Source: Gautieria morchelliformis (lineage: Eukaryota > Basidiomycota > Agaricomycetes > Gomphales > Gomphaceae). From it: a stretch of 64,000 nucleotides of DNA. The notes beneath the pieces were generated by a model, which was given only the letters and a program-made list of their open reading frames with translations, did no database searches and was not told where the DNA came from. Of the stretch, positions 3,041 through 63,314 are shown in pieces. The stretch spans positions 123,861 through 187,860 of the forward strand of contig WHVA01000198.1 in assembly GCA_015179125.1 (NCBI GenBank). The letters are read 5' to 3'. Made by a program: the position numbers and the translations under genes. Within the stretch, counting starts at the first letter, position 1. The number at the start of each line of letters is the position of its first letter.

Positions 3041-3127
3041 AGCTATCAGGGTGATGGAATGGGTTCAATGATGGAGTCACTCACGCTTATAAGATGTGTG
3101 AGCTTTTCATAGTCCTGTAGAGTTCAC

Positions 3128-13378: not shown

Positions 13379-13627
13379 TATTGGGATACGACACCGTTGG
13401 TAAGCTTGGAACGCAGCAGGGCCGTGCCCGGCATCAACGTAGGGAGGATACTCGTAGCTTCGGTCCTGCATGACCGAAGCTAGTATATAGTTCAGACGTA
13501 CGAGCAGTCGCACCTCAGTGAAGCTATCGTTCACTGAGGCACGCATCGTCTCTCATAGTTACACACGCATCGCTAATCGTAATGTATAGCCCATTGTACT
13601 TAGTCTACTGCGCATAACCCATCAACA
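13379..13627 (+). repeat. 5' LTR of the copia element
   Basis: 249 bp from TATTGGGATACG to CATCAACA. The first two bases are TA instead of the canonical TG; both LTRs share TA, so the change predates this insertion. It contains a strong hairpin around TAGCTTCGGTC/GACCGAAGCTA (13455-13482) followed by TATATAG, a plausible TATA region. Confidence 0.92.
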
Positions 13628-13645
13628 GGTTATGGGCCCCGCAGA
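13628..13645 (+). promoter_or_regulatory. Primer-binding site resembling a half-tRNA-iMet site
   Basis: Directly after the 5' LTR the sequence GGTTATGGGCCCCGC is, with one mismatch, complementary to the anticodon arm of eukaryotic initiator methionine tRNA (contains CTCATAACC). Copia-group elements of insects and yeasts use this internal cut-tRNA priming rather than the tRNA 3' end. The gag start ATG (13632) lies inside the site. Confidence 0.6.
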
Positions 13646-14713: not shown

Positions 14714-14718
14714 GAAAT

Positions 14719-16644: not shown

Positions 16645-16645
16645 G

Positions 16646-17827: not shown

Positions 17828-18104
17828 GCGTGGAACGCAGCAGGGCCGTGCCCGGCATCAATGTAGGGAGGATACTCGTAGCTTCGGTCCTGCATGACCG
17901 AAGCTAGTATATAGTTCAGACGTACGAGCAGTCGCACCTCAGTGAAGCTATCGTTCACTGAGGTACGCATCGTCTCTCATAGTTACACACGCATCGCTAA
18001 TCGTAATGTATAGCCCATTGTACTTAGGTAGCTATACATGTTACAGTGAAGCTATCGTTCACTGAGCCCATCGTACTTAGTCTACTGCGCATAACCCATC
18101 AACA
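17803..18104 (+). repeat. 3' LTR of the copia element
   Basis: 302 bp, 53 bp longer than the 5' LTR. The extra block near 18028-18080 repeats the local motif AGTGAAGCTATCGTTCACTG and TACTTAG, so it is an internal duplication. The few other differences are single substitutions (for example CTTGG/CGTGG near the start). The end CAACA is followed by the target duplicate CAAAG. Confidence 0.92.
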
Positions 18105-20519: not shown

Positions 20520-20624
20520 TAGCTACTGGAAGTCACCACCTGGTCGCAAATTGGACTGCATGTGAAGCGTGAGTGACTTCATCATTGAACCCATTCCATC
20601 ACCCTGATAGCTTTTCTCGCAGCC

Positions 20625-20905
20625 GTTGTTATATTGAATGTCTTGGGGTTCCATGAGCCTCCACGAGCCCTCATTCGATCTGGAATCTGGACCGGTTTCA
20701 TCCCCGCAAATAATGAGGGGCTGATGATTTTTGTAGATTGTCCTTCAGATTTAACCGTGCACAAAATGTTTGACTGGGAGACACCTGCTTTGGTCGCACT
20801 TAAAAGTTGGAAAAACCCCAGGGTTAACTTGGGGTTTGATTGGACAAAGAAGCTTGGACACAAACAACTTGAAGGAATATGCTCTGCGTTGGATGCACCC
20901 TAGAG
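20625..20905 (+). pseudogene. LOG-family-like C-terminal fragment (copy B)
   Basis: Reads NVLGFHEPPRALIRSGI, GFIPANNEGLMIFVDCPSDL and FDWETPALVALKSW, nearly identical to the fragment at 2750-3040. An intron acceptor-like sequence lies just before 20625. The catalytic PGGxGT region is again missing, so both copies derive from one captured fragment. Confidence 0.45.
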
Positions 20906-21164
20906 AGAAACGGTTGGATATCCTGTTCTTAGATTAGAGCATTAGGTCATGTGTATGTGGGCTGTTCATAGCATAGTACTGTAATATATTACTATGACCA
21001 ATTGCCAACGGCCTTTAGCATGACGCGCTGGTTTTGTAGGTGCAATGGCTGAATGGGTAGCGTGAGGTGTCACACTGTGGCTCAACCCAAATCTCGGTGG
21101 CACAGATCCAGACCAGTCCCAGGCCTCGCGTCTTTGAAGGCAGCATTCAATCGCACAGTGGTTG

Positions 21165-21335
21165 TTCGGTTTTTCTCCGAAATGGTGGGTGAAGAGCCTT
21201 CCGCCGACAGTCTTGTTTGCTTCGAGTATCTCATAGTCTATACCCAAACCTTGAAGGATCATTGCGGTATACAGTCCAGAAGCACTTGCCCCAATGATAC
21301 CTATGGCACGGCGACCAAGAGACATGCTTGGGGGA
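21165..21335 (-). pseudogene. Flavin amine oxidase N-terminal fragment (copy B)
   Basis: The minus strand reads IGIIGASASGLYTAMILQ and YEILEANKTVGGRLFTHHF, ending in HFGEKPNNH. The GG doublet is better kept than in copy A (SGR). FAD-binding N-terminus only. Confidence 0.7.
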
Positions 21336-21549
21336 AAGATCTGAAGCATCCTGAACCAGCGAGGGCAATTGCAAGGTTCTGGTGATAATGCCCAAGAATA
21401 GCGTGGCCATGGCACTCATGAATCGATAGATTCCATGCTGTCATGACTATAGTGGTAGGGCAAGGTGGAAGGGAGCCTCTGAACAAGAGCAGGACACCAG
21501 GATCACAAAGCAGGACCATGTTATAGCAAAACCACTTGTCAGGGGAGAG

Positions 21550-21965
21550 AACATGGCATGCTCTTGGGTGCTGAACTCATCCAGAGTCCCATCGGCGAGG
21601 GCTGCTTCCTGTATTGCCTGAGCCGTTTTGACCATCTCCCTGCATGCGTGTACAAAGACCATTACTTGAAGGCCTTCTCAAATAAGATCAATGACTTTCT
21701 GACATGTCACTTGGTCCAAATTTTGACATGCCACCGGTAAATTTGCTTTCCCTTTGATGCCTAAGTGTTGCTCCAATGGGATGGGATGGAAGGATGAGTT
21801 GAAATAAAAAAGTCCTTGGTGCCTCGAAACCCTGGATATTTGGAATGAGAAAATGTATTGTTGTTAAAGAAAAACAGTACCTGAGGAAATCAGCAACATC
21901 AATATAATTTGGCAATGTTGCACTGAGCCCCACAGTTCTAATCAATGATTGCGTTGACTCCACCT
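21550..21965 (-). pseudogene. Ski2-like helicase fragment (copy B)
   Basis: The minus strand keeps QVESTQSLIRTVGLSATLPN, the intron (gtactg...ccag), and GLQVMVFVHACREMVKTAQA, then DEFSTQEHA. Same limits as copy A. Small changes (CREM for CKET) show that the copies have been diverging separately. Confidence 0.72.
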
Positions 21966-22039
21966 GATCAAGTAGCATTAGCAACGTAAGGATGGGAGTC
22001 GAAAAACCTATACCATGCCCCAGCCCCCAGTAGGAGGAA

Positions 22040-22779
22040 GGCCGCATACGTAGTGTGCACCTCAAGAAAGCCAAGCCCATCCAAGAACCTTCTAATGTAG
22101 TTCAGAATCTGACTTCGTGTAATGAAGAGTTGTCGGGTGGGTGTCATCATTCATGACAAGGTCCAGATTTCACTTGTGGTACCATGTCTCCTGTTCCTTG
22201 AGGCCAAAATGTGCGCTCGGCAGCTGATGGAGGTTGGGAGCTAAAAGGGTCATTTCAGACAGAGAAATAGACAGTTCGCCTTTCTTCATGCGTGAAGGGG
22301 TTCCCTTGACGCCGACAATATCACCGCATCGGAAATGGGAATGAGTCGACTGGAAGGATTCTGGATCCTTAGCATCCCTAACAGAATCCTTCGCTTTAGT
22401 CCTGAACTAAATAAGATCGATAATGACAACAGACTGCAACTGTGCCATAATTTGAACCTTCTTGCCCTCTCCATGCAGGTCATAGAATAGGAGGTTTGAA
22501 CCCGAGGCACGGATATTATGAATTCGTCCAGCCAAACATTCTGTGGTGTCTGCTAACTGCTTTCCATTTTCTATCTTTCCCGGCATGCCATATTTCTCAA
22601 TATATAGGGGGATAGAGCTGGAAACATGGAACTTGTGCGGGTAAGAGTTTGGCTGCAGAGTTTGCCGCAGTTCTTGGACATGGCGTGAATGAAGTTCATA
22701 ATATTGCTAGAAGATAGGGGGTAAGCACACAAGGTTCAAGAATCAAGCACATACCTTACATTAGGTGTAAGTTCCTCGC
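22040..22779 (-). pseudogene. Lysyl-tRNA synthetase fragment (copy B, 5'-truncated)
   Basis: Begins at the end of the Lys/Ala extension (SEELTPN), followed by the same introns and anticodon-binding pieces as copy A. The tyrosine codon that is a TAG stop in copy A is TAC here, so copy A acquired that stop after duplication. The TGA in RYHK-stop is shared. Motif 1 ends in RRFLDGLGFLEVHT before the helicase fusion. Confidence 0.82.
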
Positions 22780-39885: not shown

Positions 39886-40937
39886 GCTGTAGGCTTCGCT
39901 TGCGCTGCAGAAGGCTCGTCTTTTCTTAGCTCTCGCTGCAGCAGGCTCGGCTTTTCGTAGCTTTCGCTGCAGCAGGCTCGGCTTTTCGTAGCTTTCGCTG
40001 CAGCAGGCTCGGCTGTCTTAGCTTTCGCTGCAGAAGGCTCGGCTTTTCTTCGCTTTCGCTGCAGCAGGCTCGGCTGTCTTCTTTCGCTGCAGCAGGCTCG
40101 GCTGTCTTAGCTTTCGCTGCAGCAGGCTCGGCTGTCTTAGCTTTCGCTGCAGCAGGCTCGGCTGTCTTAGCTTTCGCTGCAGCAGGCTCGGCTGTCTCAG
40201 CGAAAGCAGCAGGCTCGGCTGTCTTACCTTTCGCTGCAGCAGGCTCGGCTGTCTTAGCTCTCGCTGCAGCAGGCTCGGCTGTCTTCTTTCGCTGCAGCAG
40301 GCTCGGCTGTCTTCTTTCGCTGCAGCAGGCTCGGCTGTCTTCTTTCGCTGCAGCAGGCTCGGCTGTCTTACCTTTCGCTGCAGCAGGCTCGGCTGTCTTA
40401 GCTCTCGCTGCAGCAGGCTCGGCTGTCTTCTTTCGCTGCAGCAGGCTCGGCTGTCTTACCTTTCGCTGCAGCAGGCTCGGCTGTCTTAGCTCTCGCTGCA
40501 GCAGGCTCGGCTGTCTTCTTTCGCTGCAGCAGGCTCGGCTGTCTTAGCTTTCGCTGCAGCAGGCTCGGCTGTCTTAGCTTTCGCTGCAGCAGGCTCGGCT
40601 GTCTTCTTTCGCTGCAGCAGGCTCGGCTGTCTTCTTTCGCTGCAGCAGGCTCGGCTGTCTTACCTTTCGCTGCAGCAGGCTCGGCGTCTTAGGTTTCGCT
40701 GCAGCTGGCTCGGCTGTCTTCTTTCGCTGCAGCAGGCTCGGCTGTCTTCTTTCGCTGCAGCAGGCTCGGCTGTCTTAGCTTTCGCTGCAGCAGGCTCGGC
40801 TGTCTTAGCTTTCGCTGCAGCAGGCTCGGCTGTCTTAGCTTTCGCTGCAGCAGGCTCGGCTGTCTTAGCTTTCGCTGCAGCAGGCTCGGCTGTCTTCTTT
40901 CGCTGCAGCAGGCTCGGCTGTCTTAGCTGTCGCTGCG
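39886..40937. repeat. Minisatellite of about 35 units, 28 or 30 bp
   Basis: Core TTTCGCTGCAGCAGGCTCGG followed by CTGTCT and a linker of TTAGC, TTACC or TTC, which makes unit lengths of 30 or 28. Early units vary more (CTTTTCGTAG linkers) than central ones, and one unit near 40195-40210 is partly inverted (CAGCGAAAGCAG). The 30-bp unit alone could encode a Lys/Ala/Pro/Glu decapeptide on the minus strand, but the 28-bp units break that frame. Confidence 0.92.
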
Positions 40938-49106: not shown

Positions 49107-49586
49107 TGTCAGGGGACACCCTGTTTTCCATTTCCAGTTCCGACACCACACCAAGTTCCGACTCCATTTCCGACTCCGCTTCCGGTTCCGATTCCATCTC
49201 CGCATCCGCTTTCGGGAACGATTCCGCTTCTGGGAGAACTTCCACCAGTTCCGTTCGCCTTGCCAGTTCCACTCCAATTTCCGACTTCCGCCCCGGAACA
49301 GTGTCGGAAATCAAACGACTCGCATAATAGGTGGCATCAAGGGTCGATCAAGGGTCAGGGGGATGCAGGGTTGATGGCGGGTGCCAAGTGTTGTCCCTGG
49401 CTGCGCAGCGTAGTATAATACGGGCTCGCTGACATTGGGGGTCCTTAGACTTTTCTCTTTGGATTTCCCCTTGTCAGGTGAGAACCCCCTCTCTTGTATG
49501 CTCTGTTCATTTATACATACTTTGGATTTCCCCTTGTCAGTTGTGTGGTAGTGTGATCTCCACGACTAGCCAGGGTTGCCCTTACA
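49107..49586 (+). repeat. Gypsy-1 5' LTR
   Basis: TGTCAGGGGACACC to CCCTTACA. A TATA box (GTATAATA, 49413-49420) places the transcript start near 49445-49450. It contains an unusual run of TTCCGA/TTCCGC hexamers (49130-49320) that also gives the pol ORF a Ser-rich tail where it runs into the 3' LTR, and two copies of TTTGGATTTCCCCTTGTCAG. Confidence 0.95.
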
Positions 49587-49588
49587 GC

Positions 49589-49598
49589 AGAAAAGTCT
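49589..49598 (+). promoter_or_regulatory. Gypsy-1 primer-binding site, self-complementary to LTR
   Basis: AGAAAAGTCT, two bases after the LTR, is the exact complement of AGACTTTTCT at 49447-49456, which lies 33 nt downstream of the TATA start, i.e. at the predicted 5' end of the RNA. There is no TGG as in normal tRNA sites. This is the Tf1/sushi arrangement, in which the folded RNA 5' end primes minus-strand synthesis. Confidence 0.7.
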
Positions 49599-49773
49599 CT
49601 CCCCTAGAGGACCGGCGGTCGTACTGCACGTTGCATTCGCCATAGGTGCGTTCGGAATCGGAGACAGCGACTCGGAGATCGCAACCTCTTCCGCACATAC
49701 AGCGTACGACAGCCCCTCTTCTTACGTCGAGCTCCCAACCCCAGAAATCCCGTCCCATATTTCTCCTTCCAAC

Positions 49774-50949
49774 ATGGATCCGGACGATCGTCTTCGGAAT
49801 ATGGAGGAGGAATTGACGCGGAACCGGATGAAGACCGACGCGATTGAAACAGCCTTACAAGCGATTTTGGCTAAGTTAGATATTCCACAAGGTGGTGGAA
49901 ATGAAATGCTGGACGATCCAGATTTCGGAAAAGCGGAACTAGCGGAAAAGAGGATGTCCGCGAAGTTAGCAAAGGTCAAACCCGCAACTCCGGCGGACTT
50001 TGACGGAGATCGGGAGAAGGGACGCGCATTCTTCAACACATGCAGCATCTACTTCGCAATTGTCGGAGACCTCTTTCCGAACGACCAGGCTCGGATTCAC
50101 TGGACATTGTCCTTTTTCAAATCGGACCGCGCAGCCCGTTTTGCAAACAAGGTGATCCGACATGAAGCAAAGGGCAAGGGGAACTACTTCCGGGACTGGG
50201 ACGCGTTCGAGAAAACATTTTCCGACCAGTTCTGCCCGAAAAACGAGCAGCTCACAGCCCTTACAAAGCTCGAGGGGACGAGCTGGTACCAGGCCAAAGA
50301 TCCGGTCGATGACTACATCGATCGCTTCCAGGAGCTCATCGACCTTGCGGAATATGACGACGACAAGACGATCGTCATCAAATTCCGACGAGGACTTGAT
50401 CCGACGCTCCAGAACCAAGTTGCGCTGCTGGGGGATGGAGCTCCGGATTTTGATGACCCGGAAGGGTGGTACCAAGCCGCGCAGAAGGTTTCTCGGAACA
50501 GGGACGCAAATGAGGCCTTCGTGGAGACGAGTCGGAACACGACACGCAGTTCCGCTCGTCCTACTCCACCTGTGCCAAAACCCGGAAGCGCATTCATTCC
50601 CACACGGAAATTATTTCCGATGCTTGCTCCGCCTGCTCCTATTAGGAACCATAGCCCTCCTCCCTCGAAGAGTGGCCCTGCCCCGATGGATGTTGACCGC
50701 ATGCGCGGAAAAGGCCACGGAACTATCACCTGCTTCCGCTGCCGACAACCAGGCCACTATGCTCGCGAGTGCCCCCAAGCCTTTGATATCCGGCTTATGA
50801 CCACAGAGGAGAAACTCGAGATCCTTCCAGAGTTCCTCGCACTTGCAGACATAAACGGAGTGCCCACTGCGGAAGAACTTTCCGAAAATGCGGAACATGG
50901 TCTACCGGAAGCGGAAGATGCGTCGGATTTTGTGACACGCAGCGGGTGA
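49774..50949 (+). CDS. Gypsy-1 Gag
   Basis: Capsid/nucleocapsid polyprotein that packages element RNA. I choose ATG 49774 (MDPDDRLRNMEEELTRN) because upstream in-frame codons lie in or next to the LTR and primer site; this gives 391 residues. A short coiled N-terminus leads to a retrotrans_gag capsid core: ADFDGDREKGRAFFNTC, FFKSDRAARFANKVI, DYIDRFQELIDLAEYDD, KFRRGLDPTLQNQVA. A Pro-rich linker precedes one zinc knuckle CFRCRQPGHYAREC near residue 315. The frame ends TGA 50947-50949, overlapping pol by 4 bp in the -1 frame. Intact. Confidence 0.93.
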   Translation: MDPDDRLRNMEEELTRNRMKTDAIETALQAILAKLDIPQGGGNEMLDDPDFGKAELAEKRMSAKLAKVKPATPADFDGDREKGRAFFNTCSIYFAIVGDLFPNDQARIHWTLSFFKSDRAARFANKVIRHEAKGKGNYFRDWDAFEKTFSDQFCPKNEQLTALTKLEGTSWYQAKDPVDDYIDRFQELIDLAEYDDDKTIVIKFRRGLDPTLQNQVALLGDGAPDFDDPEGWYQAAQKVSRNRDANEAFVETSRNTTRSSARPTPPVPKPGSAFIPTRKLFPMLAPPAPIRNHSPPPSKSGPAPMDVDRMRGKGHGTITCFRCRQPGHYARECPQAFDIRLMTTEEKLEILPEFLALADINGVPTAEELSENAEHGLPEAEDASDFVTRSG

Positions 50950-53900
50950 GATGTGTGCCCCTGCTGCCTGTACATAACCGGTTTGCCTGTCTTGAAGTAG
51001 AGAATGAAAAGCCCCCACTCCCCTCACTTCGTACAGACCCACCGGATAAAGTCACACAAAAACCAAATCTGACACCCCGTCCATCCCGCATCCGCCCTTG
51101 GGAGAGACGCCTTCCGAAGCGCTATGTTGTTGCTGCCACCCTTGGCCCCAAGTCACTAGTCATTAAGGTAGAGATCCAGACGACCGATACGGCGGAAGTC
51201 AAATCCGGACCCGCCCTTGTCGATTGCGGGGCCACTGGTCAGTTTATGGACCGGGACTATGTGGAACGGAACCGACTGACCACGCGGAAGTTGCAACGTG
51301 CAATCCCGGTGTTCAATGTGGATGGAAGCCCCAATGAGGCAGGGTCCATCACGGAGATAGTGGACACAATTCTCCGCTACGATGGACACTCGGAACGCAC
51401 TTCCTTCGCTGTCACCAGCCTGGGGAAGCAAGACATCATCCTCGGGTTTACCTGGCTTCAAGAGCACAACCCGGAGATCAATTGGCAGACTCGGAAGGTA
51501 CTGATGAGTCGGTGTCCAGCCAAGTGTCACATGTGCCGGTCGGAAGTGCGGAAGGAGCGCCAGGAGCAGCGGAAGACCGAACGGCTCATACAGACATGTC
51601 GTTCCGGCCCCCATCCACTGCTTGCAGAAGAAGACTCGGAAGCGGAATTTGACCCGGATCCCCCTTCCAATTCCGATTCCGACGCCATCCGACTCGGCCT
51701 GGAAGGCACTCTGACGGAAGGGGAGCGCTTGCTGTACGTAAACCTTCCGCCGGAGGCGGAACACATCCGCGCCACCGGAAATATTTCGCAACGCCTTGCT
51801 GAAGCCTCTAAGAGGTATGATAGAGTGGAGGCGGAAATTCCGGAGTACCTGCGGGAGTTTGAGGACGTCTTTTCCAAGGAGTCGTTTGATACCCTGCCTC
51901 CACGGAAGCTGTGGGACCACGCCATCGAGTTGGAGCCTGGGTCAAAGCCCACCAACTGCAAGGTCTACCCGCTGTCACCCAAGGAGCAGGTAGAGCTCGA
52001 TGCATTCCTTGCGGAAAACCTCCGTACAGGGAGGATCCGCCCCTCCAAGTCACCCATGGCATCTCCGGTGTTCTTCATCAAGAAGAAGGATGGCTCGCTC
52101 AGACTTGTGCAGGACTACCGGGCCTTGAATGCGATCACGATCAAGAACCGGTACCCCATTCCACTCATTTCCGAACTGATCACACAACTCCGCGGAGCGA
52201 GGTACTTCACTAAGCTGGATGTCCGCTGGGGCTTCAACAATGTCCGGATCCGAGAGGGAGACGAGTGGAAGGCCGCATTCCGCACCAATCGAGGACTCTT
52301 TGAGCCACAGGTCATGTTCTTTGGCCTCACCAACAGTCCCGCCACATTCCAGACGATGATGAATGACATTTTCCGTGACATGATAGCAGAAGGGGTTGTC
52401 TGCGTCTACCTCGATGACATCCTCATTTTCACGAAAACAATGTCCGAACATCGGGAAGTCGTGCGGAGAGTGCTGGAACGGCTCCGGGAGTACAACCTGT
52501 GTCTCAAGCCGGAAAAGTGCGAATTTGAGCGGACGCGGATAGAGTATCTTGGGGTGATTGTGTCGGAAGGGAAGGTGGAAATGGACCCAGTCAAAGTTTC
52601 CGGTGTATCGGATTGGCCCGTGCCGCGAAACAAGAAGGAGGTCCAGTCCTTCATTGGGTTTGTCAATTTCTACCAGCGGTTCATCAAGGACTTCTCCTGC
52701 CACGCCCGTGCCCTCTTCGACCTCACCAAGAAGGAGGTTGGATGGGGGTGGGGAGAGCCGGAACAGACTTCCTTTGACAAACTCAAGGAGCTGATCACTT
52801 CCGCTCCGGTCCTGATCTTTCCCGACGACTCTCGCCCTTATCGAGTCGAGGCGGATTCTTCCGACGCAGCTACCGGAGCGGTCTTGTCACAGCAGTCATC
52901 GGAAGATGGTGGGGGGTGGCATCTGATTGCCTTCTTCTCTAAGAGCCTTAGTCCGGTCGAGCGGAACTATGAGATCCATGACAAGGAGATGCTGGCAATC
53001 ATCCGAGCGCTGGAGGAGTGGCGACACTTCCTCGAGGGTGCTCTATGCCCTTTTGAGATCTGGACAGACCACAAGAACCTCGAGTATTTCCGCACGTCTA
53101 AGAAGCTGAACCGACGACAAGCACGGTGGTCCCTACACCTGTCCCGGTTTGACTTCATGCTCCACCACCGCCCCGGCCGCACCATGGGCAAGCCCGATGC
53201 CCTATCCCGCCGCGCGGATCACGGAAGCGGAAGTGGAGACAACGCGGATATGACACTGCTCCGCCCAAGTCTCTTTGCAATCCGTGCCCTAGAAGGAGTA
53301 ACTGCAGTTGGGGCGGAAGCGGAAATGCTCCGGGATATCCGGAGGCAGTACCGGAATGGAGAGAAGGAGGAGTCGGTGGTGAAGGCAGTGGAGGAACTCC
53401 GGAAAGGGCACTCACGGTCTGTACGGGCAGCGGAATGGTCGGAACGTGATGGACTGCTCCACTTCAGAGGCAAGGTCTATGTTCCGGGTGGGGCGGACCT
53501 CCGCCGTCGCATCGTGTCCCAGCACCATGACACACGGGTCGCTGGGCATGCTGGCAGGTGGAAGACGCTGGAGTTAGTGGCTCGGAATTACTGGTGGCCT
53601 CAGATGTCCCGCTACATCGGACAGTACGTGAAGACGTGTGACCTTTGTCTCCGAACCAAAGCGCAACGACGTCCGCCCGTCGGAGAACTTGTTCCGCTCC
53701 CGATTCCCGAATCCCGCTGGGACACCATCAGTGTCGACTTCATCGTTGAACTCCCAGAGTCTCATGGCTACGACGCGATCATGAACGTCGTGGATTCGGT
53801 GAGCAAGGTGTCCCACTTCATTCCGATGCACAGGACGATCACAGCCCTCGGAGCGGCCCGCCTGTTCCTTGCACATGTCTGGAAGTTGCATGGGCTCCCG

Positions 53901-55076
53901 AAGCAAGTTGTTTCCGACCGAGGTCCGCAGTTTGTCGCGGAACTGACTCGGGAGCTCTACCGCCTGCTCGGCATAAAGCTGGCTACCACCACAGCGTACC
54001 ATCCGCAGGGTGACGGACAGATGGAACGGGTCAATCAGGAGTTAGAGCAATACCTCCGCCTCTTTGTCAATGAGAGGCAGGATGACTGGGATGAGTTACT
54101 TCCGCTGGCGGAATTCCAATACAACAACCATGTCCATTCCGCCACACAACAGACTCCCTTCATGCTTGACTCAGGACGACACCCGCGGATGGGCTTCGAA
54201 CCACGCCAGGCTGAGTCCCGACTCGAGACGGTCAATGAGTTCCGAGACCGCATGGACTCCACCCTTTCGGAAGCCAAGTCGGCCCTTGCGAAGGCCAAGG
54301 ATGACATGGCAAGGTACTACAACCAACGCCGGGTTCCTGCCCCAGAGTACCAAGTTGGAGACAAGGTGTACCTAGATGCAAGTGACATCCGCACCACACG
54401 CCCTTCGCAGAAGCTTGCCCACCGCTACCTTGGGCCCTTCACAGTGACGCGGAGGGTTGGACGGAATGCATACCGCCTCCGACTTCCGATGTCCATGTCC
54501 CGCCTCCACCCCGTCTTCAACGTGGTGAAGTTACTCCCTATGCTTGAGGACCCAATTCCACATCGGAAGGCTCATCCGCCACCTCCGCCAGAAATTGTAG
54601 ATGGGGAAGAGCACTACGTGGTGGAACGGATCCTGGACAGCCGGTTTGTGCGAGGACGACTCCAATTCCTCGTGAAATGGGAAGGGTATGGGTACGAGGA
54701 GAATTCTTGGGTCCCGGAGCAAGATGTTTCCGCTCCTGACAAACTCCGGGAGTTCTATAGGACACATCCAGGTGCCCCTCGCCGAATCCGCTCGCTGGCA
54801 TTTCAATCCCTTGTGTCCCGTGCTTCGAGGACGCAGCACGCTAGAGGGGGGGTGATGTCAGGGGACACCCTGTTTTCCATTTCCAGTTCCGACACCACAC
54901 CAAGTTCCGACTCCATTTCCGACTCCGCTTCCGGTTCCGATTCCATCTCCGCATCCGCTTTCGGGAACGATTCCGCTTCTGGGAGAACTTCCACCAGTTC
55001 CGTTCGCCTTGCCAGTTCCACTCCAATTTCCGACTTCCGCCCCGGAACAGTGTCGGAAATCAAACGACTCGCATAA
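50946..55076 (+). CDS. Gypsy-1 Pol (protease, RT, RNase H, integrase, chromodomain)
   Basis: Up to 1376 codons in the -1 frame relative to gag, with no early ATG, so expression by -1 frameshifting or reinitiation is likely; the pol frame is also open for at least 60 bp into gag. Protease ALVDCGATGQF (residue 93). RT palm: QDYRALNAITIKNRYP, FTKLDVRWGF, FFGLTNSPATFQ, YLDDILIF (about 487). RNase H: EADSSDAATGAVL, HDKEMLAIIRALEEWRHFL, WTDHKNLEYF. Integrase HHCC around HDTRVAGHAG and CDLCLRTK; DDE as VDFIVE, VSDRGPQF, DGQMERVNQELE. C-terminal chromodomain YVVERILD...FLVKWEGYGYEENSW (about 1220-1275), which may target heterochromatin. The last 73 codons lie in the 3' LTR. Confidence 0.95.
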   Translation: MRCVPLLPVHNRFACLEVENEKPPLPSLRTDPPDKVTQKPNLTPRPSRIRPWERRLPKRYVVAATLGPKSLVIKVEIQTTDTAEVKSGPALVDCGATGQFMDRDYVERNRLTTRKLQRAIPVFNVDGSPNEAGSITEIVDTILRYDGHSERTSFAVTSLGKQDIILGFTWLQEHNPEINWQTRKVLMSRCPAKCHMCRSEVRKERQEQRKTERLIQTCRSGPHPLLAEEDSEAEFDPDPPSNSDSDAIRLGLEGTLTEGERLLYVNLPPEAEHIRATGNISQRLAEASKRYDRVEAEIPEYLREFEDVFSKESFDTLPPRKLWDHAIELEPGSKPTNCKVYPLSPKEQVELDAFLAENLRTGRIRPSKSPMASPVFFIKKKDGSLRLVQDYRALNAITIKNRYPIPLISELITQLRGARYFTKLDVRWGFNNVRIREGDEWKAAFRTNRGLFEPQVMFFGLTNSPATFQTMMNDIFRDMIAEGVVCVYLDDILIFTKTMSEHREVVRRVLERLREYNLCLKPEKCEFERTRIEYLGVIVSEGKVEMDPVKVSGVSDWPVPRNKKEVQSFIGFVNFYQRFIKDFSCHARALFDLTKKEVGWGWGEPEQTSFDKLKELITSAPVLIFPDDSRPYRVEADSSDAATGAVLSQQSSEDGGGWHLIAFFSKSLSPVERNYEIHDKEMLAIIRALEEWRHFLEGALCPFEIWTDHKNLEYFRTSKKLNRRQARWSLHLSRFDFMLHHRPGRTMGKPDALSRRADHGSGSGDNADMTLLRPSLFAIRALEGVTAVGAEAEMLRDIRRQYRNGEKEESVVKAVEELRKGHSRSVRAAEWSERDGLLHFRGKVYVPGGADLRRRIVSQHHDTRVAGHAGRWKTLELVARNYWWPQMSRYIGQYVKTCDLCLRTKAQRRPPVGELVPLPIPESRWDTISVDFIVELPESHGYDAIMNVVDSVSKVSHFIPMHRTITALGAARLFLAHVWKLHGLPKQVVSDRGPQFVAELTRELYRLLGIKLATTTAYHPQGDGQMERVNQELEQYLRLFVNERQDDWDELLPLAEFQYNNHVHSATQQTPFMLDSGRHPRMGFEPRQAESRLETVNEFRDRMDSTLSEAKSALAKAKDDMARYYNQRRVPAPEYQVGDKVYLDASDIRTTRPSQKLAHRYLGPFTVTRRVGRNAYRLRLPMSMSRLHPVFNVVKLLPMLEDPIPHRKAHPPPPPEIVDGEEHYVVERILDSRFVRGRLQFLVKWEGYGYEENSWVPEQDVSAPDKLREFYRTHPGAPRRIRSLAFQSLVSRASRTQHARGGVMSGDTLFSISSSDTTPSSDSISDSASGSDSISASAFGNDSASGRTSTSSVRLASSTPISDFRPGTVSEIKRLA
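54844..54855 (+). promoter_or_regulatory. Gypsy-1 polypurine tract
   Basis: AGAGGGGGGGTGA-type purine run directly before the 3' LTR TGTCAGG. It lies within the pol reading frame. Confidence 0.85.
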
Positions 55077-55335
55077 TAGGTGGCATCAAGGGTCGATCAA
55101 GGGTCAGGGGGATGCAGGGTTGATGGCGGGTGCCAAGTGTTGTCCCTGGCTGCGCAGCGTAGTATAATACGGGCTCGCTGACATTGGGGGTCCTTAGACT
55201 TTTCTCTTTGGATTTCCCCTTGTCAGGTGAGAACCCCCTCTCTTGTATGCTCTGTTCATTTATACATACTTTGGATTTCCCCTTGTCAGTTGTGTGGTAG
55301 TGTGATCTCCACGACTAGCCAGGGTTGCCCTTACA
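54856..55335 (+). repeat. Gypsy-1 3' LTR
   Basis: Same length (480 bp) as the 5' LTR, and no differences were found on reading. The pol stop (55074-55076) lies inside it. Confidence 0.95.
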
Positions 55336-55438
55336 AACTCACCAGTGGTGCTTAAGTCTTCCTCTGGAGGGGCGGGTTAGTGCAGGTGGAACTGACCCAA
55401 ACCAAGCGCCCGTTTTGGATCACGCGAAGGGAGAGCCT

Positions 55439-55985
55439 TGTAAGGACCCGGCCTTTGGCCGGCTACTTACCGGTAGAACCTTCTTCCGAGCCCCAAGCCT
55501 TGTGATATCCGTGCCCGAGTACATGATACTTATCCGCGCCCGAGCCCGAGCCCGAGCTTGAACTCATATCCGACCTTGATCCCATGCCCGTATCCCCCTT
55601 AGTTACTGATTCCGCTCCATCACGCATCATTCGTATATTACCTCGCCCTGACCTCGCCCTGACCTCCACTAATCTGTTCGCCCCTGACTTGCACCTCGTC
55701 CGTATATAACCCCCTTGTATGCATTCCTACTCCTCAGTCTGAAAATCAACTATCGTGTCCCTTCGATCCCTAGCTAGTTTCTACGCCTCGCCTCTTAAGC
55801 TAGAACCTCGCCTCTTATTCGTTTACCTCCGAAGTTGGGACTCGTGCGTAGGGTCGGCGCAGCACATAAGCTGAAGCCAAGTCCCTCTCCGACTTCCCCA
55901 TCCAAACCTCGCCCTGTAACCTCGGACCTTGACTCGGGTTTCGTCCCCGACCTCGGTCAACCTTACGACGGATCGTAACGTAACA
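55439..55985 (+). repeat. Gypsy-2 5' LTR
   Basis: TGTAAGGACCCGGCC to GATCGTAACGTAACA. It contains a TATA box GTATATAAC (55702-55710) and a CCCGAG-rich block (GCGCCCGAGCCCGAG). Confidence 0.93.
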
Positions 55986-55987
55986 GT

Positions 55988-55999
55988 ATTTTCAGACTG
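55988..55999 (+). promoter_or_regulatory. Gypsy-2 primer-binding site, self-complementary to LTR
   Basis: ATTTTCAGACTG, two bases after the LTR, is the exact complement of CAGTCTGAAAAT at 55735-55746, which begins 32 nt after the TATA start. Same geometry as Gypsy-1 although the sequences are unrelated. Confidence 0.72.
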
Positions 56000-56028
56000 C
56001 TTACACCCTACGTATCCCTTTTTTCACG

Positions 56029-57261
56029 ATGTCCATGATAACTCGTTCTCGCACCCTTCGGGGTATCTCAGAACAGCGACGTTTCTCGGAAGCCCCCGAT
56101 GACTCACCCCCGTCCCCGGGGATACCCCTCGCAGACCCCGCCGAGCCTAGTAACAAAGGCAAAGGTAGGGCTAACCTCGGTGACCCTTCAGGTGATCCAG
56201 GTGATGGCTCTAGAAGTTCTGACAACGATCGGGACCTCCCCAACCTTCCGCCCGAGGACCTCGGTGACCTCGAGGACAACGAGCTTATGCGTCGAGTGTT
56301 CATCAAACTCGCGAAACCTCGCGAATCCGAAGCATGAGCCAAGGTCAAGGAACCGGATAGTTATGACGGTACTGACCAAGCCAAGCTTCGCACTTTCTTC
56401 CTTCAATGTGTACTCAACTTCAGAGATCGCCCCACCGCGTTCAAGACTGGGGCCTCAAAGGTGCAGTATGCTATTTCTTACCTGTCCGGCTCAGCTCTGC
56501 AATATTTCGAGCCGGCGATCCTCGGCGAAGTCCAACCCGAGCCAGATTGGCTCGAGGACTGGGACAGTTTCAAGGCCAAGCTTGAGCTTAACTTCGGCCC
56601 ATACGACAACGCGGCCCAAGCCGAGATTGACCTCGAGAAGATCGTTATGAAAGAGCACCACAAGGCCACGCGATTCTTTATCGACTTCGCCCGAGCTTCG
56701 ACTCGGACTCAGTGGAACGACGCGGCCCTCCAACACTTTGCCTATAAGGGCTTGGCCAAACGAATCAAGGACGACTTACTTCACTTCCCTCGATTCCGCA
56801 GCCTCGCCGAGCTTAGGAACTTCGCGCTGGAATGCGATAGCCGTTACTGGGAGCGAAAGGAATACGACGCCATGATCAATGGTCGTAGCTCCCAGCCTGC
56901 ACGCACCCCTAATCAGTCCAGTAGCAATGCCACTAACAACCACCAGCCTTCCAGTGGTTCCAATAACAATAAGAACCGCAACAAGACTAACAACAGCGGC
57001 AAGGGTTCCAACAACAACAACTCTTCGAACAACAAGAGCCAGCCCGACATTTCGAGCAAACTCGGGAAGGATGGCAAACTGCTTCCCGAGGAGCGCCAAC
57101 GTCGGGTCGACCAAGGCCTTTGTCTGCTTTGCGGCACCAAAGGTCACGTCGTCAAGGACTGCCCGAAGAACAAGTCTACCAATAGTAGCGGTTCTAAAGG
57201 TCAGGCAACGAAGACCCCTAACGAGGGGACTTCGGCCTCCATTACGGAGGTGAAAAAATAG
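56029..57261 (+). pseudogene. Gypsy-2 Gag with one in-frame stop
   Basis: ATG 56029 (MSMITRSRTLRGI) opens a 103-codon leader. TGA at 56335-56337 (GCA TGA GCC) interrupts it, and the same frame then runs open to 57261. The core reads FFLQCVLNFRDRP, SYLSGSALQYFEPA, WEDW-like DWDSFKAKLELNFGP, then an Asn/Ser-rich linker (NNNKNRNKTNNSGKG) and a zinc knuckle CLLCGTKGHVVKDC. The end is GTG AAA AAA TAG, with pol open in the -1 frame across this A6 run, a plausible frameshift site. The stop probably came from CGA by C-to-T change. Confidence 0.9.
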
Positions 57262-60200
57262 GTAGCAACCTCGGAACCACACGATCCGAGGATTGCGGTA
57301 ACCTCACCCGTGTGCTCAGACTCAGCGCCGCTTCTCATTCATTGTCCAAAGATTCCCTTAATGTAGATCTAACCTCGCCTTCGCTTCCCAACGTCGCTTT
57401 TGTTGCATTAGTTGACTGCGGGTCCTCAGACTGTTTTATTGAATCCAGATTTGTCCAGAAGTACTCCATGCCTGCTTATCCTGTCTCTCCTATACCCTTG
57501 AAACTATTTGACGGTAGTACTAACACTACCATTACCCAAGCTCTAGACCTCTGCATTTGCTTTCCGACCGGCGAACAACAATGGGTTACCTTCTACGTAA
57601 CCTCGCTCGACTCAAGTTGCTCGATGGTACTTGGCCACAACTGGCTCACCCGCTACAATCCGTCGATTGACTGGGTATTGGGCAGTATTATTTTCAAGAC
57701 CATCAACCTAACAACGACTCCAGCGACCCCGGCGACGTCAGCCCGCTTAGCTTCGGCTACGACTTCGACCTCGCCTACGGCATCTTCGCCACCGCCTCCG
57801 ACCTCGCTTCCGAAATTGCAAGCACCCCTCGTTTCCCTAATCAATGCACCCGCTTTCATGCGCGCATCTAGATTGGAAGGGTCCGAAGTGTTTCAGCTCA
57901 ATTTGGCTTCGCCTGAGCTCCTCGCCAGAGGGGCAACATCGGGAGGAAGCTCTTCCGAGCTTCCTGAGAACGTTAAGAAACATGTTCCCGAAGTATATCA
58001 CGAATTTGCAGATGTGTTCAGCAAAGCACGCGCTGACACTCTAGCTCCCCACCGACCTCACGATATCAAAATCAACCTCGAAGAAGGGACCTCGCCACCT
58101 ATCGGTCCCATCTACTCTCTCTCAGCTTCCGAACTCAAAGCACTTCGCAAGTTCATCGACGAGCATTTAAACATCGGTTTCATCCGACCTTCACGCTCGC
58201 CTCATGGTGCACCGGTATTGTTCGTTCGCAAAAAAGATGGCTCACTTCGGTTGTGTGTCGACTTCCGAGGTTTGAACAAAATCTCAAAAAAAGATCGGTA
58301 TCCATTGCCATTGATTGCTGACTTACTTGATGCTCCAAAGAATGCTCGCATCTATACGAAAATTGACCTTCGTCACGCTTACCACCTCGTACGGGTGGCC
58401 GAGGGTGACGAATGGAAGACCGCCTTCAGGACTCGCTATGGGTCTTTCGAATGGTTGGTCATGCCATTTGGTCTCACTAATGGCCCTGCTGCCTTCCAGA
58501 GATTCATGAACGAGGTGTTCGCCGACCTTTTGGACGTTTGTGTGGTGGTATACTTGGATGACATTCTAATCTACTCCAGTGACCCCTCCAAACATGTTGA
58601 ACATGTCAAGGAAGTCTTGCGACGACTACGACTCAACAACCTCTTCGCCAAAGAAGACAAATGCGAGTTCCATCGCGACTCGGTTGAATTCCTCGGCTAC
58701 ATACTCTCTCCCGAGGGCCTCACTATGGCAGATGACAAAGTAAAGGTCATTCAAGACTGGCCTGAACCTCGCAAAGTTCGCGACATCCAATCCTTCCTCG
58801 GCTTCGCCAACTTCTACCGACGTTTCATTCACAACTACTCCGACATCACCATTCCTCTCACCCGACTTACCCGCAAGGGTACCCCTTGGAATTTTTCCGA
58901 GGATTGTCGACGGGCTTTCAACCTGTTGAAGAGGGCGTTCACTACCGCCCCTATCCTTACTCACTGGATTCCTGACCTTCCACTGATCGTAGAGACTGAT
59001 GCATCAGATTATGCCTTAGCGGCAATCTTATCACTACGAACCTCGGAAGGCGAACTTCATCCCGTCGCTTTCCACTCCCGCACATTCACCTCTACCGAGC
59101 TCAACTACGATGTTCACGACGACAAGGAGCTCCTCGCCATTTTTGAAGCCTTTCAACGCTGGCGACACTACCTAGAGGGCTCAGGCGAACCAGTTGACGT
59201 TATCACCGATCACAAGAACCTCGAATACTTTTCAACTACGAAGCTCTTGACCCGTCGACAAGCTCGGTGGTCGGAATACCTTTCCCAGTTCAACCTCGCC
59301 ATACGCTTCCGACCAGGTCGCCTCGGAACGAAGCCTGACTCTCTCACTAGACGATGGGACGTCTACCTTAAAGAGGGGAATAGCGACTATGCCACCATAA
59401 ACCCGCAGAACCTACGGCCAGTGTTTACTCAGCACCAGCTGGCATCATCCCTTAGAGCTACTAACCTCGCTCCCATCGTGCTCCGAGCCGCTTCACTGCT
59501 TGATACCGAGCAGATCCGAGCTGACATACTAGCGAACCTCCCCTCGGACCCCATAGCCAAGTCGCACCTCGGCTTGGTTAATGACCCGAGGTGGACCACA
59601 GACCCCGAGGGTTTCCTCAAGCTTGACAACCGAACCTATGTTCCAGGGGCCCAAGACCTTCGACTTCGCATCCTGCAATACAAGCACGATCACATCCTCT
59701 CGGGACACTTCGGGGTCAACAAGACCTTGGAGCTGATCCGACGAGACTATACTTGGCCGGGGATTAGATCCTTTGTCAAGGATTATTGCAAGACGTGTAC
59801 CACTTGTATGCGAAGCAAGCCACAACGTCACAAACCCTATGGCTCCTCAAGCAACTTCCTGTTCCCGAGAACCTTGGAATTCCATCTCTATGGATTTCAT
59901 TGAGCAACTCCCCCTTCATCCGAGTTCACCTCCATCCTAGTGATTGTTGACCGCTTCACTAAGCAGGTTATCTTCATTCCAACCACAGACAAGATAACCT
60001 CGCAAGAGCTCGCTCACCTCTTCGTTCTTCATGTCTTTTCAAAGCATGGAGTCCCCTCGCACGTCACCTCGGACAGGGGTTCCGAGTTTGTTTCGCGCTT
60101 CTGGCGTTCCCTAGGGAAAGCTTTGGACATGCGGTTGCATTTCACCTCGGGATATCATCCCGAGGGTGACGGTCAGACCGAGCGTGCTAACCAAACTTTG

Positions 60201-60970
60201 GAACAGTACCTCAGGATCTATTGCAACTATCAGCAGTCCAATTGGGCTTCGCTCCTTCCCCTAGCCGAGTTCGCCTACAACAACGCGCCTAGCGCAACCA
60301 CCGGCGTCTCCCCATTCTTTGCCAATAAGGCTACCATCCGAACCTCGCAGTTCACCCCGAGCGCGACCTCGCCTCGGAACGAGCCCGAGACTTCGTGGTT
60401 GACCTGGACGAGCTTCACCAAGAACTTCGCCACGCCATCCTCGAGGCTCAGAAAACTTACCAAGCCTCGGCCGATGTTCGTCGCAAGCCCGCTCCTGATT
60501 TCCAAGTAGGATCCCTCGCCTTTGTGAAGGCACAGTACTTTCGAACAACTCGGCCTACCAAGAAGCTCGCCGAGAAGTTCTTGGGTCCTTTTGAAATCAT
60601 TTCCCGAGCGGGTACTCACTCCTTCACCCTTCGACTTCCAGAACACATGCATTCAGTCCATCCGGTCTTCCACGTATCTATGCTCGAACCAGCCTCGCCC
60701 AACACCATACCAAACTGAGTTCAGCCGCCTCCGCCCCCAGTCGTTATCGACGGCGAACCCGAGTTTGAGGTTTCCGAAATCCTCGACTCGAAGATCGATA
60801 ATAGACGCAAGAGCTGCAAATTACTCTACCTTGTTAGGTGGACTGGTTACGAAGGTACCGACGAAGAAACCTCGTGGATCCTCGCTTCCGAGCTTGATCA
60901 TGCCTCGGAGCTGGTCACGGATTTCCATGACTCTTACCCGGGCAAGCCCGGCCCTTTGACTGCTCTATGA
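57262..60970 (+). pseudogene. Gypsy-2 Pol, frameshifted
   Basis: Open from the gag end to 59903 in one frame: protease FVALVDCGSSDCF, RT CVDFRGLNKISKKDRYP, VMPFGLTNGPAAFQ, VVVYLDDILIY, RNase H VETDASDYALAAIL and ITDHKNLEYF, integrase HHCC HDHILSGHFG and CTTCMRSK. Two small indels near 59850-59880 put SISMDFIEQLP in a different frame. The integrase core then continues VTSDRGSEFVSRFW and GDGQTERANQTLEQ (60000-60200). Another shift near 60395 is followed by FVKAQYFRTTRPTKKLAEKF, and TGA at 60717 precedes the chromodomain EFEVSEILDSKI...LVRWTGYEG...ETSWI (60757-60930). The final stop is 60968-60970. Confidence 0.9.
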
Positions 60971-61013
60971 TCATTTTCCTTTGTTAACCCCCATGACCCC
61001 AGTAGTTAGATAA

Positions 61014-61037
61014 AAAAAAAAAAAAAAAAAAAAAAAA
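61014..61037 (+). other. Internal poly(A) tract in Gypsy-2
   Basis: An uninterrupted A run of about 24 nt follows GTTAGATA, 45 bp after the pol stop and 65 bp before the end of the antisense ORF. Gypsy genomic RNA ends in the 3' LTR, so a poly(A) here is not part of a normal life cycle. Confidence 0.8.
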
Positions 61038-61101
61038 CCCTCGCAATCGAACAACAAAAATCGATAAAAACCAAGAAAAGCCTATTATTCCATTTACTAG
61101 T

Positions 61102-62254
61102 TCACTCCACCATCCTCATATCCTCTCCCTCGCTCCCCTCGCTACCCTCACCTGACTCCTCCTCATTACTACTACTACTTCGCTCCACCAGACCCCCATG
61201 TCCCCCATGATCTGCCAAGTCCCTCGCCCCCTGCATCCGCTTCAAATAATTCCGCCTCCTCCTTATCCTCATGAACTCCACATCCGCCCTGTTCATCCTG
61301 TCATTCGCAGCCCTAAACTCCCCTAGCAACTCGCACACCCTCTCCCCAACCTCGCCAACCTTCTGTCCCACATCCCTCACCGCCGCTATCAACTCCCTCA
61401 TCTCCGCACTTCGCTCCGATCTTTTCGTCTTCTTGTCCTTTTTCGCCCTCCGACCTCCAACCTCGGTTTCCTCCCCCTCAGTCTGCCTCGCTTCCCCGAC
61501 CTCTGTCTCCTCACGCTGCCTCACTTCCCCAGTCTCCTTACCCTTCTCCTCGCTCAACCTCGCTTCCATCCGCTCTACCCTCATCTCGAGGTTCCTCTCG
61601 ACCCAATCACTCGAGTCGTCGTCCTCTGCAACTTCGTCCTGAACCTTGGCCTCTTTCCTCGGCCTCGGTCCATCCTCGGCCTCCTCGCTCCTCGCTCGCT
61701 TCTTGCTCGCGGTACCCGCCTGACCCTTGCCTGGGGTTGCCTTGCTGCGGCGACCTTGGGCGATACTACAACCCAAGGAACGGGTCCTGCACCACACGCA
61801 AGCACCCTGGTCGGCGAGGCCGAAGTCGAGACTAACGGCCCGAAGGCACGTATAGTCGCGCTCTTCGCAGCGCGCGCACCTCGCCTCGGCCTTGGTCGCG
61901 AGCTGCCACTCGCGAGGTCCCCCGTCGGCGAGCTTGTACCCGTATAGGGACAAGTCGGTCGGGTGGTAGGAGAATAACATGCGTTTATACTAGACAAATC
62001 AGCAGCGCCCATGATTAGACAACTACGGTACTCACCTTCTTTCCACTCGGTCCTTCCTGCCACGGCTGCCGCATGTCGATGGCCCCCGTCTCATCAATTG
62101 GCAATGTGCCAACCTCGGGTCGATCCTCGGGCGTAACCTCGCCCGAGGCTCCGTTCTCCTCAGACAACAAAGTCTGGTCGAACGCGTTGTTCACGCTGTT
62201 CTCGTCGACGGCTGAGCTGAAGAGGGCTTGAGGGCGCACCATATTAGTTGGCAA
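61102..62254 (-). CDS. Antisense two-exon gene with Zn2Cys6-like motif
   Basis: Exon 1 runs 62254-62036 (MPTNMVRPQALF to GPSGKK, 73 codons). A 46-nt intron (GTGAGT...GTCTAG, 62035-61990, phase 0) follows, then exon 2, 61989-61102. Product about 368 residues. Cysteines sit at 111, 114, 121, 137, 140 and 147: C-x2-C-x6-C-x15-C-x2-C-x6-C, the binuclear zinc-cluster pattern of fungal transcription factors with a long central loop. A basic stretch (KKRARSEE) follows, then charged coiled-coil-prone sequence (ERMEARLSEEKGKETGE, AEMRELIAAVRDV) and an acidic tail. No fungal_trans domain is seen. The frame is fully open while pol of the same element is broken. Function unknown; DNA-binding or element regulation is inference. 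Confidence 0.75.
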
Positions 62255-62404
62255 TGGGGTTCGCTGCCTTCCTACCCACCCTTTTATCCAACCTCGGCTA
62301 CGATTTAAGCTTCGCCTTTCCGGCTACTTAACATCGGACCGAGATCTAGATTCAAGGATAGGCGAACCTTGTTCACATTACGGCCTCGAGGGTCTCGGCC
62401 ATAA

Positions 62405-62415
62405 GGGGGGAATAC
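62405..62415 (+). promoter_or_regulatory. Gypsy-2 polypurine tract
   Basis: AAGGGGGGAATAC abuts the 3' LTR. Confidence 0.8.
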
Positions 62416-62976
62416 TGTAAGGACCCGGCCTTTGGCCGGCTACTTACCGGTAGAACCTTCTTCCGAGCCCCAAGCCTTGTGATATCCGTGCCCGAGTACA
62501 TGATACTTATCCGCGCCCGAGCCCGAGCCCGAGCTTGAACTCATATCCGACCTTGATCCCATGCCCGTATCCCCCTTAGTTACTGATTCCGCTCCATCAC
62601 GCATCATTCGTATATTACCTCGCCCTGACCTCGGTCTCCTGACCTCGCCCTGACCTCCACTAATCTGTTCGCCCCTGACTTGCACCTCGTCCGTATATAA
62701 CCCCCTTGTATGCATTCCTACTCCTCAGTCTGAAAATCAACTATCGTGTCCCTTCGATCCCTAGCTAGTTTCTACGCCTCGCCTCTTAAGCTAGAACCTC
62801 GCCTCTTATTCGTTTACCTCCGAAGTTGGGACTCGTGCGTAGGGTCGGCGCAGCACATAAGCTGAAGCCAAGTCCCTCTCCGACTTCCCCATCCAAACCT
62901 CGCCCTGTAACCTCGGACCTTGACTCAGGTTTCGTCCCCGACCTCGGTCAACCTTACGACGGATCGTATCGTAACA
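62416..62976 (+). repeat. Gypsy-2 3' LTR
   Basis: 561 bp. It differs from the 5' LTR by a 14-bp insertion (CTCGGTCTCCTGAC near 62629) and a few substitutions (GACTCGGG/GACTCAGG, GTAACG/GTATCG). Older than Gypsy-1 by this measure. Confidence 0.93.
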
Positions 62977-63314
62977 AGCCTCCAGGTTCGAATCCCCCCC
63001 TCCCCATTTGTAGCAGTAATTACTACAATGGTTCACCCCTCCGATAGGTGTCAATAAGTGTTAGGATTACGAGGCTCCTGGACTTCCACCCAGCATATAA
63101 GACCTACTGAAACTGACCGGTACTGATATGTATCTAAGGTGATTAGGCATTGTAGACAAACAGGAAGTATCCTATGTTGGTGCCAGCATATCTCTGGCTT
63201 ACTTCGGTAACTACGATACCCTAGCATGTAAAACACTTTGATTACTCTATTCCGCGTTCCGTGTAGAGACTGCCTATATAGGGCTCGGCCCCAAGGTGGC
63301 AGTATAATAAATGG

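Follow-up and report, generated by a model that had tools for sequence, protein, structure and literature searches.

Does the spliced open reading frame that lies opposite to gag-pol near the 3' end of a retrotransposon of the basidiomycete Gautieria morchelliformis encode a protein and, if so, what would this protein do for the element? A first-pass annotation, made from the letters of a single stretch of 64,000 nucleotides (hereinafter, the window), had described a two-exon frame, antisense to gag-pol and located in the interval from pol to the 3' LTR, and proposed that it encodes a Zn2Cys6-like accessory regulator. Here we describe the element and its antisense gene, compare copies across the genome and weigh the possible roles of the product.

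Results

The carrier retrotransposon

The frame is carried by a 7.5-kb LTR retrotransposon at the end of the window (positions 55439-62976; Table 1). This is a Ty3/gypsy chromodomain element of young age. The order of domains inside the LTRs is gag, reverse transcriptase, RNase H, integrase and chromodomain, the 5' and 3' LTRs are identical at 545 of the 547 aligned positions, with one additional length difference of 14 nt, and the target-site duplication AGCCT flanks the element (55434-55438 and 62977-62981). A protease match in the pol frame fell below the cut-off. In the window copy, pol is interrupted at several points within 59903-60718; a stop immediately 5' of the chromodomain frame, the only interruption of pol that was counted across copies, occurs in 4 of 70. 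A plus-strand A tract (61013-61037) lies between pol and the antisense gene and is absent from many other copies.

Table 1 Features of the element and its antisense gene, with positions in the window
Feature	Position	Strand	Basis
5' LTR, 547 nt	55439..55985	+	LTR comparison
Gag frame	56338..57261	+	Retrotrans_gag PF03732 above cut-off; zinc knuckles below cut-off
Pol frame: reverse transcriptase, RNase H, integrase zinc-binding domain	57222..59903	+	Pfam
Integrase core (rve) frame	59904..60509	+	Pfam
Chromodomain frame, end of pol	60719..60970	+	PF00385, E 1.8e-9
Exon 2, 295 codons plus stop (stop 61104-61102)	61102..61989	-	
Long predicted helix, coiled-coil-like, exon-2 residues 176-260 (product 245-329)	61210..61464	-	structure model
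Six-cysteine segment, product residues 107-143	61768..61878	-	
Spliceosomal intron, 46 nt: donor GTGAGT, branch CTGAT (A 9 nt from end), acceptor TAG	61990..62035	-	
Exon 1, 69 codons, ATG 62242-62240	62036..62242	-	
Candidate promoter, least variable non-coding 60 nt of the aligned stretch	62273..62332	-	pi 0.046-0.055, 51 copies
GATAAAAG, TATA-like, 39-46 nt upstream of ATG	62281..62288	-	
GCCTTTCCGGCTACTTA, 17-nt match to LTR edge 62428-62446, two-base gap	62314..62330	+	
3' LTR, 561 nt	62416..62976	+	LTR comparison

Directly upstream of this element lies a second LTR element (49107-55155), with 300-nt LTR stretches (49107-49406 and 54856-55155) that are 100% identical; its 1,429-codon frame, which runs to 55076, enters the 3' LTR and thus leaves no room for an antisense gene between its pol and this LTR. 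Elsewhere in the window, there is a tandem array of a 30-nt unit (39894-40936; 35.5 copies, 92% matches), a pair of long inverted repeats (942-3088 and 20565-22731; 96-98% complementary in pieces, with the innermost arms about 17.5 kb apart) and a pair of LTR-like direct repeats (227 nt, 99%) flanking long plus-strand frames at 13377-18027, in which a YGLK-type motif is suggestive of Ty1/copia.

Structure of the antisense gene

The coordinates confirm the placement given by the first-pass annotation: the gene is on the minus strand, between the chromodomain frame, which ends at 60970, and the 3' LTR, which starts at 62416. The layout is convergent, with the antisense gene ending at 61102. The two-exon frame previously counted as 368 codons is present, at a corrected length of 364 amino acids for the spliced product, the start assumed 12 nt further upstream having no ATG. 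None of 2,000 order-1 Markov shuffles of exon 2 yielded a frame of at least 290 codons (longest, 225).

Copies in the genome

At least 139 matches to exon 2 were found in the genome (122 Mb, 1,113 contigs), with 133 of the 567 candidates scored and a few of the 139 matches representing two pieces of one copy. We analyzed 70 copies (L001-L070; 30 from the exon-2 matches and 40 fetched), among which L002 is the window copy. The set is ranked by exon-2 match, so that badly broken copies are under-represented and open frames are favored; the contrast between reading frames reported below is less exposed to this bias than the indel counts. The spliced frame is open in 49 of the 70 copies, including L028 and L049, in which it runs beyond the usual stop. 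An LTR is found upstream of the gene in 68 copies and the chromodomain downstream in 69; every copy adjoins at least one of the two, so that no host-locus copy was seen among the 70.

The first-pass annotation had named an absence of homologues in other copies of the element as grounds for refutation. A search with pol-end DNA (query 60600-61100; 40 of 364 candidates scored) speaks against such an absence: the gene or its remains was found in all 40 scored copies, of which 27 adjoin an exon-2 match by position and the other 13 were fetched. No family member that never had the antisense gene was seen among these 40. A distinct subfamily with a short gene, considered on account of frames of 206-216 amino acids, was rejected; the five such copies that were fetched (L086-L090) retain the gene and the cysteine region, with frames broken in places.

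Selection on the coding frame

In 27 non-redundant copies (open spliced frames with mutual identity below 97%, from the 49 with open spliced frames), pN/pS was 0.251 in the frame of the antisense gene, with a median pairwise dN/dS of 0.21. The other two frames of the same strand gave 1.20 and 1.19, and the frames of the opposite strand 1.25, 1.52 and 0.39, the last value being low because the third codon positions of that frame coincide with those of the antisense gene. For the pol chromodomain in the same 27 copies, the sense frame had a pN/pS of 0.264, whereas two further frames, also tested, had values of 1.38 and 1.74. Purifying selection on the antisense gene is thus about as strong as on the pol chromodomain, and the random pattern of substitutions that had been raised as a possible refutation of the gene is contradicted by the ratio in its frame. 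The earlier argument that the frame stayed open while pol decayed, taken as a hint of separate constraint, fares worse: it is weak from one copy, and across copies the gene and the chromodomain are equally constrained (0.251 vs. 0.264).

On a tree of the copies (69 distinct sequences), the ratio was 0.17 for internal and 0.35 for terminal branches, and 25 of the 29 changes involving stops mapped to terminal branches (4 to internal ones); therefore, the constraint acts on lineages that still transpose. Among indels in the exons of the 70 copies, 23 distinct in-frame events were identified, 8 of them common to at least two copies, compared to 11 distinct frame-shifting events, none of which is shared and some of which, in the form of paired gaps (58 nt in each direction and 5 nt in each direction), resemble artefacts of the alignment. 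A chance open frame is ruled out by the frame-specific pN/pS together with the indel pattern and the exon-2 shuffles, and the antisense frame is almost certainly a selected protein gene.

Selection is uneven along the product: pN/pS is lowest (0.05) at residues 287-312, within the helix, and highest (0.60) at residues 27-52. The cysteine region, with 0.37 at residues 105-130 and 0.21 at residues 131-156, is not the most constrained part of the gene.

Conservation of the intron

The intron pattern was found in 69 of the 70 copies (46 nt in 57 copies, 47 nt in 10 and 48 nt in 2; L067 was unmatched). The donor is GTGAGT in 68 of these (GCGAGT in one), and all 69 have the AG acceptor and a CTRAY branch site, the A of which lies 9 nt before the intron end; because G[TC]GAGT and AG are required by the search pattern, the unforced observations are limited to the CTRAY site and the TA[CT]AA-free spacing. 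In a second, independent alignment, GTGAGT was present in all copies except for L035 and the terminal AG in all except for L067. Among the 57 copies with the 46-nt intron, the donor, branch site and acceptor had diversities of 0.006, 0.059 and 0.000, respectively, compared to 0.202 elsewhere in the intron (Mann-Whitney p = 1.6 × 10−5, with positions treated as independent). The splice signals are frozen, whereas the remaining intron drifts. The 46-nt intron annotated previously is thereby confirmed and is conserved across copies. Residues 53-78, which span the splice junction, have a pN/pS of 0.10, and no intron-less copy was seen among the 70. We consider it very likely that this intron is spliced from an antisense transcript; it would be expected to outlast reverse transcription, since its signals are in reverse orientation in the sense genomic RNA.

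The protein and its six cysteines

The cysteines at residues 107, 110, 117, 133, 136 and 143 have the spacing C-x2-C-x6-C-x15-C-x2-C-x6-C, which bears out the zinc-cluster spacing read from the window copy. In the 70 copies, chosen by exon-2 match, the first four are present in all and the last two in 69. The remainder of the product includes a conserved block (GAIDM..PWQEGP.GKKYK.MLF.YHP), basic stretches that, by eye, look like a nuclear signal, and an acidic tail. The long helix was modeled with block pLDDT of 64-93 at exon-2 residues 181-260, and the cysteine segment, in two structure models that disagree on secondary structure, with block pLDDT of 34-46 and 37-42.

The spacing is shared with fungal Zn2Cys6 transcription factors (PF00172), as is a helix region after the cluster; in contrast to that family, the present product falls below the Pfam cut-off, has a 15-residue linker and is mostly acidic between cysteines 2 and 3, unlike classical Zn2Cys6 proteins. 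Could the segment nevertheless be a true Zn2Cys6 domain acquired from a transcription factor of fungi, which would make the product a genuine member of the family? The C-x2-C-x6-C half-site occurs twice, and Zn_clus was the most-matched Pfam family when the 90-residue segment was searched alone, with weak matches in 18 of 26 rows (best E 0.018), which represent closely related copies and hence do not count as independent, and none in 10 shuffled controls, 5 of which had the cysteines fixed. However, the segment of the window copy scored 13.5 bits (E 0.079) against a curated cut-off of 21; a Pfam search with the full spliced product at E 1 gave no match, and among 28 exon-2 proteins, searched at E up to 10, a single one matched Zn_clus (E 0.36). 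Three of the shuffled controls matched other families, one of them (with cysteines fixed) at E 0.046, so that segment hits of this size arise by chance. Endonuclease_7 was matched by 10 of the 26 rows. Both structure models of the segment are poor, and the best matches in the solved-structure searches (E 1.4 and 0.22) are unrelated proteins. On balance, true membership in the family appears doubtful, and the segment is best described as zinc-cluster-like, a resemblance by cysteine spacing. Of the product class assigned in the first-pass annotation, then, the cysteine spacing has stood, and the window copy falls short of the curated cut-off of the family.

Copies without the cysteine segment

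Among the 13 fetched pol-end copies, the cysteine segment is deleted in seven (L071-L077), L078 is shifted in several places, and in L080-L084 the gene is present but has shifts or gaps; a frameshift is also found in L079, which belongs to the 27 copies adjoining exon-2 matches. When the 17 copies (including that in the window) with a pol end at least 97% identical to that of the window copy are considered, 7 (L071-L077) have no cysteine segment and 2 more (L078 and L079) are frameshifted. The loss of cysteines that had been named beforehand as evidence against the gene is, accordingly, not seen at individual positions in the copies chosen by exon-2 match, but the entire segment is missing from 7 of the 17 nearest pol-end copies.

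A single AGGCCGAGG repeat is the breakpoint in L073, L076 and L077, which have different backgrounds; the frame is changed at this junction in L073 and L076 and kept in L077, which is one base shorter there and has other indels. L074 and L075 have another junction in common, with open frames of 283 and 294 amino acids. Recurrent slippage or template switching in reverse transcription would be a simple explanation of these deletions. A second spliced intron as their source was rejected: the breakpoints of L073-L077 are at a direct repeat of the AGGCCGAGG type, the frame is altered at this point in L073 and L076, and the actual intron is still in place. Young copies have spread without an intact gene, and thus the gene, or the segment, is dispensable in cis, as expected for a protein acting in trans.

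The region upstream of the gene

The first-pass annotation placed the promoter near the 3' LTR. A conserved stretch located between the ATG and the LTR, outside the 3' LTR, fits this proposal, as a candidate promoter. In 51 copies (L020-L070), pi was 0.046-0.055 in this stretch, compared to 0.068-0.187 in LTR windows and 0.17-0.24 in intron windows. The TATA-like GATAAAAG is present in 64 of the 65 copies with variants listed (of 70 in total). The match between GCCTTTCCGGCTACTTA and the LTR edge, GCCTTT(GG)CCGGCTACTTA, is equaled in score by 15 of 1,000 shuffles, and the exact forms found in the window occur in 42 of 70 copies (upstream form) and 31 of 70 (LTR form); we regard this putative shared motif as a weak lead.

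Homologues and known antisense genes

Approximately 5.8 billion proteins were searched three times, and the only match, obtained in two of the searches, was P0001, a protein of Gautieria morchelliformis, via its C-terminal part (88% identity over 16% of the query); the genome differs from this record, with 92-98% identity over the pieces compared. P0001 (L085) joins the C-terminal part of the gene to an unrelated repeat family (about residues 27-261), which has further genomic matches at 42-68% identity. The third search, with residues 50-152, found no match among 44 candidates. The profile search scored the best 7,999 candidates, those sharing most words; the protein search requires shared five-residue words and, therefore, absence elsewhere is weak evidence. 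Protein-database and solved-structure searches found no homologue of known function, the NCBIfam search gave one match far below the cut-off (E 0.12), and the Rfam search gave nothing useful.

An antisense gene at the 3' end of an LTR element is of a known kind, represented by Grande, RIRE2 and Retand in plants, by Boty (brtn) in fungi and by retroviral HBZ; what is new is that the present version, from a basidiomycete, is spliced, has six cysteines and has no detected relatives. Among the papers listed in a literature search that covered few subscription journals, no title or opening of an abstract describes a gene of this kind, antisense, spliced and with six cysteines, in an element of a basidiomycete. 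The antisense gene brtn of Boty-like retrotransposons of Botrytis cinerea was reportedly the subject of Zhao et al. 2011. In the parts of later sources that were consulted, brtn is mentioned as an additional antisense gene of Boty (PMC8365987, PMC4227169) and a similarity to BRTN is mentioned in Monilinia (PMC5987419). By these partial accounts, Boty, like the present element, is a fungal gypsy element with a chromodomain and an extra antisense gene between pol and the 3' LTR; its host is an ascomycete, whereas the present host is a basidiomycete, and brtn was compared by description only. No BRTN-named protein was among the hits at E 1 in a search that needs shared five-residue words and used no BRTN query sequence.

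According to excerpts on the plant elements, Grande gene23, RIRE2, Retand (TRP28 domain) and PvRetro13 share position and orientation with the present gene, and the plant antisense ORFs, like it, occur in most copies and are conserved about as well as other element proteins. By position, presence in most copies and conservation similar to that of other element proteins, the present gene is a probable member of the class of antisense additional ORFs found 3' of pol (aORF-3R). The consulted portion of PMC7264820 describes the Grande antisense product as nuclear and its promoter as upstream of the gene, calls the functions of plant antisense ORFs unknown and asks others to look for antisense spliced transcripts; DNA binding is predicted for TRP28 (PMC7264820 and PMC11963269, in part). 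The word 'intron' does not occur in the main text of these two papers, whereas the present gene has a conserved intron. Neither TRP28 (PF04195) nor SMC was matched by the spliced product at E up to 1 or by 28 exon-2 proteins at E up to 10, and Retand belongs to a non-chromovirus lineage, whereas the present element has a chromodomain.

Like the present gene, HTLV-1 HBZ and APH-2, -3 and -4 are antisense, located at the 3' end of the element and spliced, and HBZ is nuclear and lowers sense expression (PMC10186651, in part). However, HBZ belongs to the bZIP proteins and is expressed from the 3' LTR, whereas the candidate promoter of the present gene is outside the LTR, and bZIP was not among the Pfam matches of the spliced product or of 28 exon-2 proteins. 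The likeness to HBZ would be one of functional analogy; homology was not found.

Discussion

The product is probably a protein used by the element. Our best guess is a nuclear, dimeric accessory regulator of the element, and the architecture of the product together with the precedents of HBZ and Grande gene23 is the reason for favoring a nuclear, dimeric, zinc-holding regulator. Under this proposal, transcription would start in the conserved upstream stretch, which is internal to the element but not part of the LTR; the 46-nt intron would be removed from the antisense transcript; the product would enter the nucleus and dimerise via the long helix; its six cysteines would hold zinc and the product would bind nucleic acid; and its most likely role would be to control sense transcription of the element, similar to that of HBZ in HTLV-1. 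That a Ty3/gypsy chromodomain element carries an accessory antisense protein gene whose product regulates sense transcription of the element is, in our estimation, an evenly balanced proposition, and the more specific reading of the product as a DNA-binding regulator of the element is held tentatively, falling slightly short of even. An HBZ-like circuit that arose independently of HTLV, in which a spliced antisense zinc protein expressed from an internal promoter binds GCCTTT..CCGGCTACTTA, appears improbable; if it existed, the presence of GCCTTT..CCGGCTACTTA at the LTR edge and upstream of the gene would place both the element and the gene itself under control, and L074 and L075, in which the helix is kept and the cysteine segment lost, would be natural interfering variants.

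The main rival of such transcriptional regulation is an accessory protein of a later step, such as nuclear import, RNA handling or choice of the integration site. The constraint, which equals that of the pol chromodomain, is compatible with this role, and the most constrained block lies in the C-terminal helix (0.05) rather than in the cysteine region (0.37 and 0.21); one of the two structure models predicts, with poor confidence, strands in the cysteine segment, and CxxC-x22-CxxC spacing also suits zinc ribbons. Nuclear transport was also considered by the plant authors (PMC7264820, in part). However, nothing specific links the product to particles, integrase or RNA, and the pol chromodomain already plausibly serves integration choice; we consider a later-step role somewhat unlikely, if the strongest of the rivals. 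It is also conceivable that the antisense RNA is what matters, by forming double-stranded RNA, by silencing or by interfering with the sense RNA, and that the protein is incidental. The convergent layout (frame ends at 60970 and 61102) is suggestive of such an effect, and antisense RNA roles are discussed for plant elements (PMC7264820) and for HTLV-1 hbz RNA (PMC10186651) in the parts consulted; an effect of the RNA alone leaves the codon-level selection, the excess of in-frame indels and the frozen splice sites unexplained and is largely refuted, hence highly unlikely, but the RNA may have a role in addition to that of the protein.

Least likely of all, to the point of being barely credible, is a captured host gene carried without use to the element. 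No homologue was found outside the Gautieria record, in accord with such an origin; against it, the gene or its remains is present in every scored pol-end copy, selection is detected on the internal branches of the copy tree, and no copy at a host locus was seen among the 70. A useless passenger is likewise ruled out, by the internal-branch selection and by a pN/pS like that of the chromodomain.

Returning to the favored reading, an accessory protein that would regulate its own element, the coding frame, the intron and the upstream region are visibly constrained across more than 100 matches with graded divergence, which makes the functional question testable. Antisense 3'-end genes of LTR elements recur in plants, in retroviruses and in at least one fungus. 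The present case suggests that a spliceosomal intron can persist through RNA-mediated copying when it is opposite to the genomic RNA strand, and conserved intron signals would therefore mark a gene expressed from that strand.
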